From Cryobacterium sp. PH29-G1 (GTDB lineage Bacteria; Actinomycetota; Actinomycetes; Actinomycetales; Microbacteriaceae): a DNA stretch of 64,000 nucleotides. The number at the start of each line of letters is the position of its first letter. Position 1 is the first letter of the stretch. Shown piece by piece: positions 41,554 to 45,217 of the stretch. Location of the stretch: contig NZ_JASISY010000002.1 in assembly GCF_030063365.1 (NCBI RefSeq), forward strand, positions 372,001 through 436,000, in the 5' to 3' direction. The position numbers were made by a program, and so were the translations under genes. The notes under the pieces are model-generated. The model saw nothing but the letters and a program-made list of their open reading frames with translations. It was not told where the DNA came from and searched no databases.

Positions 41554-41931
41554 ATGGAGCTTACTTCCGCCCGGGTCGATAGTTGGAGCTGGGGCGTGCG
41601 TCTGTTCAAGACCCGCTCGATGGCTACGACCGCCTGCCGCGCCGGGCACGTGAAGGTGAACGGTGACAAGGCCAAGGCCGCGCAGGCCCTGCACATCGGG
41701 GACGAGGTGCGCGTGCGCTCGGACGGCTTCGACCGGGTTCTGATCGTGTCGCGTCTCGTGGTCAAACGGGTGGGAGCGGTCGTCGCCGCCGAATGCTACG
41801 TCGACAAGACTCCCCCGCCTCCGCCGCGCGAAGAAGTCGCCCTGGTTCCCATGCGTGACCGTGGCGCCGGGCGGCCGACCAAGCGCGAGCGGCGCGAGAT
41901 TGACGAACTGCGCGGACACGTCAACGAATAA
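41554..41931 (+). CDS. S4-domain RNA-binding protein (Hsp15-like)
   Basis: The 125-residue protein has an S4 RNA-binding fold at residues 4-65 (RVDSWSWGVRLFKTRSMATTACRAGHVKVNG, ends given) and a basic Pro/Arg-rich tail. Hsp15 relatives bind stalled 50S subunits carrying peptidyl-tRNA. It is convergent with csrA, only eight bases apart. Confidence 0.9.
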   Translation: MELTSARVDSWSWGVRLFKTRSMATTACRAGHVKVNGDKAKAAQALHIGDEVRVRSDGFDRVLIVSRLVVKRVGAVVAAECYVDKTPPPPPREEVALVPMRDRGAGRPTKRERREIDELRGHVNE

Positions 41932-41939
41932 CGGGCCGC

Positions 41940-42275
41940 CTACGACTGTGCGGGCGGCTGCGGCAGGTCCGGTTCGATACCCGTTGCGGTGTCGGCAGCC
42001 GGGTGCGACGCGGTCTCGTGAAGCGACGGGGCGGATTGCAGCGCAGCCAGAACGCCGAGCGACCGTTTGATGCGGTCTTCCGCCGTCGTGTCGGTGCGGC
42101 TTGCCGCGAGATTCGCGTCGCTGACAGCGCGTACCACCTCGTCGCGCTGTATCTTCACGCCGCGGGGGGCGTCGATTCCAATGCGAACGCTGTCTCCGCG
42201 AGAGTCGAGCACGGTGATGACAATATCGTCACCGATGAGGATCTTTTCCCCCGGTTTGCGTGTCAGAACGAGCAT
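41940..42275 (-). CDS. csrA: CsrA/RsmA RNA-binding regulator
   Basis: This post-transcriptional regulator binds GGA motifs in mRNA leaders. Residues 1-60 are a standard CsrA (MLVLTRKPGEKILIGDDIVI, GIDAPRGVKIQRDEV). It extends about 45 residues beyond the usual 61-75, with an acidic/Pro-rich tail. It is divergent from a truncated flgL and fliW. In flagellated bacteria CsrA, FliW and flagellin form a switch, with FliW binding CsrA. Here its neighbours suggest a remnant flagellar locus with csrA inverted relative to flgL-fliW. Confidence 0.93.
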   Translation of the reverse strand: MLVLTRKPGEKILIGDDIVITVLDSRGDSVRIGIDAPRGVKIQRDEVVRAVSDANLAASRTDTTAEDRIKRSLGVLAALQSAPSLHETASHPAADTATGIEPDLPQPPAQS

Positions 42276-42778
42276 CGTTCCAGCTTACCGTTCGCCGTCG
42301 CGGCGTCGGCGATTCGTACGCTCCGGCGGCCTTCACCGCGGCCTACGCCTTCACCGGTGACTCCAGCAGCGTCGATCGGCGCATCAGCGCCACGAGCACG
42401 GTGCGGGTCGACGCTGACGGCGGCGCAATCTTTGGAACGGCAGACCAGTCGGTTTTTGCGCTGCTCGACACCATCGTCACCGATCTGCGATCGACCACGA
42501 ACGTCAATGTGGCCACGCACCTCGACGCTCTCGACAAACGGATGGCGATTATGACCGGACAGCGCAGTGAAATCGGTGCCCGCCAAGTGCAGCTGGAACG
42601 CGCCCAATCTACTCTGCTCGAAAAATCCGCCACGCTGGATGCCCAACGGTCCGGCATCGAAGACGCCGACCTTGGCCAGGTCATCCTGGATTTGAAATTG
42701 CAGGAAGTGACCTATCAGGCCGCCCTCGCTGTGACCGCCCGTGTTCTTCAACCAACCCTGATGGATTTTCTCTCATGA
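42276..42778 (+). pseudogene. flgL: flgL remnant (C-terminal half of hook-filament junction protein)
   Basis: The reading frame encodes about 165 residues: AFTGDSSSVDRRI, VFALLDTIVTDL, LDKRMAIMTGQRSEIGARQV, LEAQRSGIEDADL-like sequence, and TYQAALAVTARVLQPTLMDFL. This is the conserved second half of FlgL. The N-terminal D0/D1 region (about 130-150 residues) is missing; homology begins where csrA starts on the other strand, so the join is probably an inversion or deletion breakpoint. A chance GTG at 42260 could start translation. The stop overlaps fliW as ATGA. Confidence 0.8.
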
Positions 42779-43170
42779 GCACTACCCTCACCAGCCCGCT
42801 CCTCAGCTTCGTCGCGCCCCCGCCCGGGTTGGCACCGCTCACCGACTTCTCCCTCAACGAGATCGAAGGAGCCGCGGGCCTGTACTCGCTGCAGGCATCC
42901 GCTCAGCCGGCCACACGATTGTTCGTACTCGACGCGGCCATCTTTCTGCCGAACTACACCCCGGCGATCTCCAGCGAGCAGTCGAACGCGCTGTCGCTGA
43001 CCACGCCCGACGATGCCCTCGTGCTCGTGGTCGTCAACCCGGGCGATAGCACCACCGTGAACCTGATGGCTCCGATCGTGGTCAACGCCCGCACCGGTTC
43101 CTGCGCGCAGCTGATTCTCGACGACCAGGACTGGCCCCTGCACGCCGAACTCGGTACCGGCGAACACTGA
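42775..43170 (+). CDS. fliW: FliW, flagellar assembly factor/CsrA antagonist
   Basis: The 131-residue protein matches the FliW family: FVAPPPGLAPLTDFSL, LFVLDAAIFLPNYTP, VLVVVNPGDSTTVNLMAPIV and VNARTGSCAQLIL in order. FliW binds flagellin and also CsrA, blocking CsrA action. Flagellin is not encoded nearby. The frame is intact and its start overlaps the flgL remnant. Confidence 0.9.
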   Translation: MSTTLTSPLLSFVAPPPGLAPLTDFSLNEIEGAAGLYSLQASAQPATRLFVLDAAIFLPNYTPAISSEQSNALSLTTPDDALVLVVVNPGDSTTVNLMAPIVVNARTGSCAQLILDDQDWPLHAELGTGEH

Positions 43171-43185
43171 CGCTGCCCCCACTGT

Positions 43186-43253
43186 GCGGGCCCGGGCCCG
43201 GAAAGTGGGCCCACGTTAGATCATGGGCCCGGTTTCCGGGCCCGGGCCCGGTC
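43186..43253 (-). repeat. GGGCCC palindromic repeat, copy D
   Basis: This copy lies about 25 kb from copies A-C and in the opposite orientation. Its minus strand reads GGAAACCGGGCCCATGATC, TAACGTGGGCCCACTTTCC, then GGGCCCGGGCCC, matching the core of copy A. A further GGGCCCGGGCCC block lies on the other side. Confidence 0.85.
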
Positions 43254-43258
43254 GATCT

Positions 43259-43300
<42 letters not shown>

Positions 43301-43304
43301 CAAA

Positions 43305-43853
43305 CTAGTGCGACTCGGCCTCGACCAGCGCCGCCTCGAACGCGACCCAGGGCAGCATGGCGCACTTCACCCGGGCGGGGTAGCGCGAGACTCCCCCGAA
43401 GGCGGCGGCATCGCCGAGAATCTCTTCGTCGGGCTCGATCTTGCCGCGAGAACGCAGCATCTCCCGAAAATTGTCGAGCAGAGCGCGCGCCTCGGTCGTG
43501 CCCAAACCCAGCAGGGTGTCGGTGAGAATCGAAGCGGATGCCTGCGAAATCGAGCAGCCCTCACCGGCCCAGACCAGTTCGGTCACCGCGGTATCCGCTG
43601 TGTCGTCGGCACCGTTGGCGTCGTTGGCGCCGGTGTCGGCGACCGCGCCGGTGCCGGCGTCGGCACCCAGCGAGACGCGCAGCGTGATCTCGTCGCCGCA
43701 GGTCGTGTTGATCTGGTGCGATTCGGCCACCCGCAGGCCGCTCGCGGCCCCGGCAGCGACGGCCTCGGCCAGCGGCGTAAGTTCGACCGCTCCGTGCCGG
43801 CCCTTGGAGTGTTCCAGAATGATCGTCTGGTACAGCTGCTGCAGTTCACTCAT
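43305..43853 (-). CDS. sufU: SufU-type sulfur relay/Fe-S assembly protein
   Basis: SufU accepts sulfur from SufS in Fe-S cluster assembly. The 182 residues have the three Cys ligands and the Asp: C52 and D54 in TTCGDE, C100 in GEGCSISQAS, C164 in VKCAMLPW. The usual NP(L)CGD is TTCGD here. An Ala/Asp/Gly-rich insert at about residues 64-90 is encoded by simple sequence and is not typical. It overlaps sufS by ATGA. Confidence 0.93.
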   Translation of the reverse strand: MSELQQLYQTIILEHSKGRHGAVELTPLAEAVAAGAASGLRVAESHQINTTCGDEITLRVSLGADAGTGAVADTGANDANGADDTADTAVTELVWAGEGCSISQASASILTDTLLGLGTTEARALLDNFREMLRSRGKIEPDEEILGDAAAFGGVSRYPARVKCAMLPWVAFEAALVEAESH

Positions 43854-45217
43854 CGCTTGACTCCAAAGAAAGGACCGACCTCAGCGAGGGTGGCTAGAAA
43901 CAGGTCGACCTCGTCGGTCGTGTTGTACAGGTATGTGCTCGCCCGGGTAGACGCGGTCACGCCAAGTCGACGGTGCAGCGGCTGGGCGCAGTGATGGCCG
44001 ACCCGCACGGCGATGCCGGCATCGTCGAGAAGCTGACCAACGTCGTGGGCGTGCACACCGGCCACATCCACGGCGGCGAGGCCGAGACGTTCAACGCCGA
44101 GTCCGGGGCCGAGCAGGCGCACACCGCCGATTTCGGCGAGGCCGGCGACCAGGCGCTGGCCCAGCTGGGCCTCCCACTCGGCGACCCGGTGCATGCCGGT
44201 CTCGCGCAGGTAATCGACGGCCGCGGCCAGCGCGATCGCCTGCGAGATGCGCTGGGTGCCGGCTTCAAAACGCTGCGGCGGCGCCAGAAACTCGGCTTTC
44301 TCCATATCCACCGTGGTGATCATCGACCCGCCGGTGAGAAAGGGCGGCATGTCGGCGAGCAGTTCGGCCTTGCCGTAGAGCGCGCCGATTCCGGTGGGGC
44401 CGAGCATTTTATGACCGGAGAAGACGGCGAAGTCCACGTCGAGCACCTTCAGGTCGACCGGCAGGTGCGGCACGGTCTGGCAGGCATCGAGCACAACCAG
44501 TGCGCCGACCGTGCGTGCCAAAGCCACCAGTTCGGCTACCGGGTTGATGACACCGGTGACATTGGAGGCGTGCGTGAAGGCGAGGAGTCTCGTTTTGGTG
44601 CCGACGACATCCGCTGCAGCCTGCAGGTCGAGGGTGCCGTCGTCGAGCACCGGAATGAAGCGCAAGGTGGCGCCGGTGCGCAGCGCAAGCTGCTGCCAGG
44701 GAATGAGGTTGGCGTGGTGTTCCATCTCGGTCACCACGATTTCGTCGCCGGCGCCGAGGCTGAATCGGCGGGCCGCCGGGCCACCGAGGCCGAGCGAGGC
44801 GTTGGAGAAGCTGTAGGACAGAAGATTGATGCCCTCGGTCGCATTGGAGGTCCAGACAATTTCATCGGTCTGGGCGCCGACGAACGCGGCGACGGTCTCC
44901 CGAGCGGCTTCGAACGCCTCGGTCGCCTCCACAGCGAGCGTGTGGGCGCCGCGGTGCACGGCAGCATTGCGCTGCTCGTAGTACTCCTGCTCGGCTTCCA
45001 ACACGCTGATCGGGTTCTGCGAGGTCGCGCCCGAGTCGAGGTAGGTAAGCGGATGCCCGTTCACCTGCTGGTGCAGCACCGGAAAGTCATTGCGAATACG
45101 TTCAATGTCGATGTTGGTCAGCGGGGCTGACTCGGCGTGCGGGGAACCGGGCTCGGTGGTTGCAGGCGCAGTGGTTTCAGATGGCGTAGCGGCGGACGAT
45201 GGTGCAAAAGACATCAT
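43850..45217 (-). CDS. sufS: SufS-type cysteine desulfurase
   Basis: This PLP enzyme releases sulfur from cysteine as a persulfide for SufU. The 455 residues include SGHKMLGPTGIGALYG with the PLP lysine (about 270), ATSQNP, NATEGINL and the persulfide Cys in GHHCAQPLHRRLG (about 410). The first 30 residues are a Ser/Thr/Pro-rich extension. The other suf genes (BCD) are not in the window. Confidence 0.95.
   Translation of the reverse strand: MMSFAPSSAATPSETTAPATTEPGSPHAESAPLTNIDIERIRNDFPVLHQQVNGHPLTYLDSGATSQNPISVLEAEQEYYEQRNAAVHRGAHTLAVEATEAFEAARETVAAFVGAQTDEIVWTSNATEGINLLSYSFSNASLGLGGPAARRFSLGAGDEIVVTEMEHHANLIPWQQLALRTGATLRFIPVLDDGTLDLQAAADVVGTKTRLLAFTHASNVTGVINPVAELVALARTVGALVVLDACQTVPHLPVDLKVLDVDFAVFSGHKMLGPTGIGALYGKAELLADMPPFLTGGSMITTVDMEKAEFLAPPQRFEAGTQRISQAIALAAAVDYLRETGMHRVAEWEAQLGQRLVAGLAEIGGVRLLGPGLGVERLGLAAVDVAGVHAHDVGQLLDDAGIAVRVGHHCAQPLHRRLGVTASTRASTYLYNTTDEVDLFLATLAEVGPFFGVKR

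Follow-up and report, generated by a model that had tools for sequence, protein, structure and literature searches.

Is a pair of intact csrA and fliW genes, lying on either side of half an flgL gene in a genome where no flagellin gene was found, still a regulatory switch, or is it what remains of a flagellar cluster? In Bacillus subtilis the flagellin mRNA is repressed by CsrA, which attaches to a GGA hairpin and to the Shine-Dalgarno GGA; once flagellin has been consumed, FliW becomes free to bind CsrA, and the repression ends. A preliminary description of a 64,000-nucleotide stretch of the genome of Cryobacterium sp. PH29-G1 (the stretch, C22:372001-436000, is called the window below, and its genome G000) had proposed that the pair might have been rewired for another purpose. 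The reading favoured here, to which we give a probability of roughly 0.87, is that the flagellar cluster was recently deleted and that csrA, the flgL stub and fliW are leftovers and not a rewired regulator.

Structure of the csrA-flgL-fliW locus

The features of the locus, in window coordinates, are as follows.

41554..41931, plus strand: S4-domain protein, left neighbour (Pfam S4; tblastn 95-99% in 11 flagellated relatives)
41940..42275, minus strand: csrA, 111 aa, intact (Pfam CsrA), left end gene of the lost flagellar cluster
42276..42309, minus strand: remaining upstream sequence of csrA with the ribosome-binding region (ungapped comparison with 10 relatives)
42305..42309, no strand: deletion junction, placed within about 10 bp by comparison with 10 relatives
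about 42305..42778, plus strand: flgL stub, the C-terminal half from the hypervariable domain on, stop codon kept (Pfam Flagellin_C)
42775..43170, plus strand: fliW, 131 aa, intact (Pfam FliW), right end gene of the lost cluster
43305..43853, minus strand: SufU-type protein, right neighbour kept beside fliW (Pfam NifU_N; tblastn 77-83% in 11 relatives)
43850..45217, minus strand: right neighbour, from its sequence presumably a SufS-type cysteine desulfurase (tblastn 88-92% in 11 relatives)

It is clear that csrA and fliW are both intact, as the preliminary description had stated. The CsrA profile (PF02599) is matched over positions 1-51 of 53 with E=4.2e-24 and 84.7 bits against a cut-off of 27, and the FliW profile (PF02623) over positions 2-121 of 122 with E=3.8e-23 and 82 bits against a cut-off of 25. 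Comparison of the window FliW with named genomes gave 43 loci, 27 of them from Cryobacterium, including the 11 best (85-93% identity). The statement that flgL is present as its second half only was likewise borne out; the Pfam scan finds Flagellin_C (E=1e-08) without Flagellin_N, so that the two flagellin-like domains of FlgL, both present in the flgL of the flagellated relative G068, are not found together in the window. The extent of the stub was taken from a protein alignment with the flgL of 11 relatives, in which the N-terminal half is seen to be deleted. The open frame begins mechanically at 42260, inside the csrA-side sequence, and flgL-derived bases start only at about 42305. At the other end the fliW ATG overlaps the flgL stop codon, as it does in relatives. 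Between fliW and sufU a GC-rich stretch at 43187-43250 matches its own reverse complement and is followed by 6.8 perfect copies of GAGCAC at 43259-43299; the same GC-rich stretch also aligns, inverted, to sequence that follows fliW in G036 (L030).

The window CsrA has Arg44, which we take to be an RNA-binding residue, and Asn55, as do all 11 relatives aligned. Asn55 is needed for FliW binding in Geobacter sulfurreducens, according to an excerpt of the relevant study (PMC13407953). The C-terminal extension of the protein, which had been thought to add to the case for rewiring, can be ruled out as a novel feature: variable tails follow the conserved part in 11 of 11 flagellated relatives aligned (98-125 aa, against 111 aa in the window), and elsewhere in the genus open frames around CsrA matches range from 50 to 158 aa, so that the tail is variable. 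Since the tail is common to all 11 relatives, it gives no sign of a new role.

Comparison with flagellated relatives

The whole flagellar cluster was fetched in 10 relatives (G010, G013, G014, G018, G020, G029, G032, G036, G063 and G068). In every one of these csrA and fliW are the two end genes of the cluster, with the same orientation and the same outer neighbours as in the window, and in the close flagellated relatives that were aligned the S4 gene likewise adjoins csrA. Not every genome of the genus is arranged in this way: the order of csrA, FlhA and fliW differs in G021, and in several drafts csrA and fliW lie on separate contigs.

Alignment with these relatives, the route foreseen in the preliminary description, defines the breakpoint at about 42305-42309. 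Homology from the left reaches to about 42309 and homology from the right, in the flgL frame, begins at about 42305; the bases between (GTCGG) align to either side, with one mismatch on the flgL side. The junction is therefore separated from the csrA start codon, on its upstream side, by about 29-34 bp, and flgL-like sequence does not begin exactly at csrA, as had been thought. By the coordinates, 27,757 to 32,089 bases present in the 10 relatives are missing from the window. The flanks are collinear with those of the relatives, there is a single junction, and the intervening DNA was not found in the genome; a single deletion thus appears, from these alignments, to join the cluster ends. A deletion or an inversion had been envisaged, and the first of these stands. 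Inversion was ruled out: csrA and fliW are oriented as in the 10 relatives compared and therefore no inversion is needed.

The arrangement in G068 indicates what lay next to the two genes. Upstream of csrA is a frame of 339 aa with no Pfam match, which stops 9 bp before csrA and belongs to a same-strand run of frames including flhA; on the other strand flgK, flgL and fliW are directly consecutive. With the upstream DNA of both csrA and fliW deleted in the window, the operon context of both is lost. Their promoters have probably gone too, and the remaining upstream sequence at 42276..42309 probably also holds the last codons of the deleted frame. A scan found no sigma-70-like promoter at 41900-43300, which is weak evidence in a GC-rich actinobacterium.

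Search for further flagellar genes and for the flagellin leader

The assembly comprises 3.80 Mb in 31 contigs and is 99.93% complete. Searches gave no match in it to Flagellin_N or to FlhA, and one match each to CsrA and FliW, both at this locus; the flagellin gene which a working flagellin-FliW-CsrA checkpoint requires was thus not found. The cluster DNA of G068, divided into two pieces (16,751 and 14,300 bases), was also compared with the genome; with 40 of 294 and 40 of 269 initial candidates scored, the pieces gave 1 and 3 matches respectively, of 30-55 bp, which is too short to be genes. These searches thus found no flagellar cluster elsewhere in the assembly. What the cluster contains can be seen in G068, where 24 of 30 frames were matched by Pfam: FlhA, FlhB, FliR, FliP, FliN, FliM, MotB, MotA, a FlgE-type hook protein, FlgD, FliK, FliJ, a FliI-type ATPase, FliH, FliG, FliF, two rod proteins, FliS, FliD, flagellin, a sigma-70 factor, FlgK and FlgL. 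Some of the 6 frames without a match may not be genes.

All 16 flagellin copies of the 10 relatives have a leader in which a GGA lies inside an inverted repeat (mostly GGCCCATGGATGGGCC) and a GGAGGA immediately precedes the start codon. Consensus folding of 14 of these leaders (the second G018 copy and that of G014 were omitted) predicts a hairpin, with low covariation: one of 11 pairs is changed on both sides, in 2 of the 14 sequences. By analogy with B. subtilis the leader is probably a CsrA target under FliW control. A scan allowing up to 3 mismatches found the hairpin motif nowhere in the window, and the searches of the genome did not recover the flagellin cluster either, so that the flagellin-leader target has probably gone. 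Occurrences of CANGGA in the window number 85, against 140 expected, a comparison that is not informative.

Codon models and the age of the deletion

Two-omega codon models with the window branch as foreground were fitted to 11 taxa, the 10 relatives and the window, for the flgL stub, fliW and csrA and for S4, sufU and ubiA as controls; G078 was left out, as its flgL and fliW are divergent (72%) and its cluster is split over two contigs. On the window branch omega was 0.150 for the stub (background 0.143), 0.070 for fliW (0.053) and 0.085 for csrA (0.102), and for the controls 0.091 for sufU (0.070), 0.092 for ubiA (0.085) and 0.007 for S4 (0.022). A separate omega on this branch gains at most 1.6 lnL units (the maximum being at S4), and setting it to 1 costs 9-42 units depending on the gene, the cost for the stub being 13.9 units.

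The stub has no evident function and yet is unrelaxed, which indicates that the deletion is recent. The grid interval of the stub omega on the window branch is 0.09-0.25, and the time since the cut would then be at most about one eighth of that branch (0.25 against 0.143), or about one sixth if the coarse grid is interpolated, provided that the headless stub was neutral after the cut and that omega mixes linearly. This is a rough estimate because the branches are long: neutral changes per codon number about 1.3 in the stub and about 2.1 in csrA. Since the deletion is young, intact csrA and fliW prove little about function; they can be intact simply through the youth of the event. They too are unrelaxed, an outcome to be expected from functional retention as well, so the omega test dates the deletion while being compatible with function of csrA and fliW since then.

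Retention of csrA and fliW in the genus and family

In the genus (57 genomes, including that of the window) FlhA was found in 52, CsrA in 53 and FliW in 52. CsrA is present in 52/52 FlhA-positive genomes and in 1/5 of the FlhA-negative ones, FliW in 50/52 and 2/5; FliW was not matched in two FlhA-positive genomes, G028 and G076, both of which are fragmented drafts (270 and 300 contigs). The FlhA-negative five are G000, with csrA, the flgL stub and fliW; G016, with an flgL stub and fliW and no CsrA match; and G011, G066 and G070, in which neither CsrA nor FliW was matched. Even sampling of the family gave 219 genomes, of which 68 have FliW, 68 have FlhA and 67 have both. FliW without FlhA occurs in one genome, the window's own, and FlhA without FliW also in one, G285. 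FliW therefore seldom outlives the flagellum in this family.

Several further observations were made in these genomes. The interval between S4 and sufU holds, by inspection, apparent sugar ABC-transporter, LacI-type regulator and glycosidase-like genes in G066 (L100:3300-14500) and G070 (L101:3400-15300). G005 has an intact FliW and two FliW-like matches with in-frame stops (C1:557315-557647 and C1:2995804-2996028). G078 groups with the window genome by its flanking genes (support 80), and yet its flgL-fliW region is only about 72% identical, a contrast between the two sequence sets suggesting that flagellar clusters have recombined within the genus. G010 carries FlhA, flagellin, csrA and fliW. 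In the excerpted description, C. suzukii is non-motile and without flagella (PMC10067761).

A second scar is present in G016 (L099:6917-9372), where the order is S4, a further gene which we take to be lipase-maturation-like, the flgL stub and fliW, with no csrA. In its relative G017, S4 and the same further gene are followed by csrA, and fliW stands at the opposite end, next to the outer neighbour found in G016. The end points in G016 differ from those in the window and a separate deletion is therefore indicated; G016 has independently kept an flgL stub and fliW, so that fliW has been spared twice. The G016 stub is without the hypervariable middle domain, in frame. In models of 12 taxa neither gene was relaxed, the best grid omega being 0.08 for the stub (background 0.106, interval 0.05-0.20) and 0.05 for fliW (background 0.064, interval 0.03-0.12).

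Discussion

The locus is best explained by one recent event in this Cryobacterium lineage, a deletion of about 28-32 kb that would have begun a little upstream of csrA, ended about halfway into flgL, and left csrA, headless flgL and fliW as a scar at the edges of the cut. In the flagellated relatives the pair most likely worked as in B. subtilis, judging from the conserved leader. The deletion would have taken flagellin and its leader from the window lineage, together with the sigma factor of the cluster and the operon surroundings of csrA and fliW; with these gone, the switch would have lost its known input and output, and it is most likely in early decay.

Alternatively, CsrA and FliW could still operate as a switch, with a partner other than flagellin or with different mRNA targets, in line with the rewiring that the preliminary description considered. 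That both proteins are intact and constrained, and that CsrA retains the Asn55 needed for FliW binding in G. sulfurreducens (excerpt of PMC13407953), is consistent with this, and there is a precedent in the non-motile clade 5 of Clostridioides difficile, which keeps FliC, FliW and CsrA (excerpt of PMC11898703). However, the flgL stub, without evident function, is as unrelaxed as csrA and fliW when each is compared with its own background, the upstream operon context of both genes is deleted, and clade 5 retained its flagellin, of which none was found in the window's genome. Furthermore, csrA is absent from 4 and both genes from 3 of the 5 FlhA-negative genomes of the genus, and a single genome among the 219 of the family has FliW but no FlhA. 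Rewiring is therefore judged very unlikely.

It could also be that selection keeps the flgL C-terminal stub together with fliW, either because the stop-start overlap serves fliW translation or because the stub is a FliW ligand. Two separate deletions, in the window and in G016, end inside flgL and spare fliW, neither stub is relaxed, and in both the flgL stop overlaps the fliW start. These are two cases only, however, and the same omega test makes both deletions young; G011, G066 and G070 retain neither CsrA nor FliW, and the failure to find a promoter-like site at 41900-43300 counts weakly in the same direction. We regard this explanation as very unlikely, and it is slightly less likely still that FliW and the flagellin-like FlgL stub form a minimal flagellin-free module which was selected twice, with CsrA in the window and without it in G016. 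An assembly artefact, in which the cluster is present in the cell and its flanks were wrongly joined, is barely credible even for a draft of 31 contigs, given that cluster DNA was found on no contig, that the junction is internal to a 491,680-base contig, that no long repeat common to both ends was seen by eye in relatives, and that completeness is 99.93%.

A recent deletion thus remains the preferred reading, and it can be set beside systems already described. The flagellin-FliW-CsrA homeostasis checkpoint is known as Hag-FliW-CsrA in B. subtilis (PMC6529632, in excerpt) and also from C. difficile (PMC11898703, in excerpt). The same two protein families are present here, and the flagellated relatives have the expected GGA hairpin and Shine-Dalgarno GGA in the leader; in the window's genome, by contrast, neither flagellin nor leader was detected, so that the circuit would be open. 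C. difficile clade 5 has lost early flagellar genes and kept fliC, fliW and csrA, which affect toxin production and carbon use, according to the same excerpt (PMC11898703). The window resembles it in having lost flagellar genes and retained fliW and csrA, so that retention with function is possible, but in clade 5 flagellin was kept and expressed and the genes act, whereas the genome studied here appears to have lost flagellin, its deletion is young and any action of the genes is hypothetical. Massive and repeated flagellar loss has been reported in Actinobacteria (PMC10746217, in excerpt), and the window represents one more loss among flagellated relatives; unlike the losses in the excerpted part of that survey, the cut itself is visible here, with remnants. 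The main text of that paper nowhere uses the word Cryobacterium, and a literature search covering titles and abstract openings found no description of a csrA-flgL stub-fliW scar.

The locus offers a clean record of flagellum loss that can be dated: the headless flgL acts as an internal clock, and the intact neighbours need no new function. It cautions against taking orphan csrA and fliW genes for rewired regulators. If the pair is expressed, this strain would be a natural case in which to see the role of CsrA once its flagellin input is gone.
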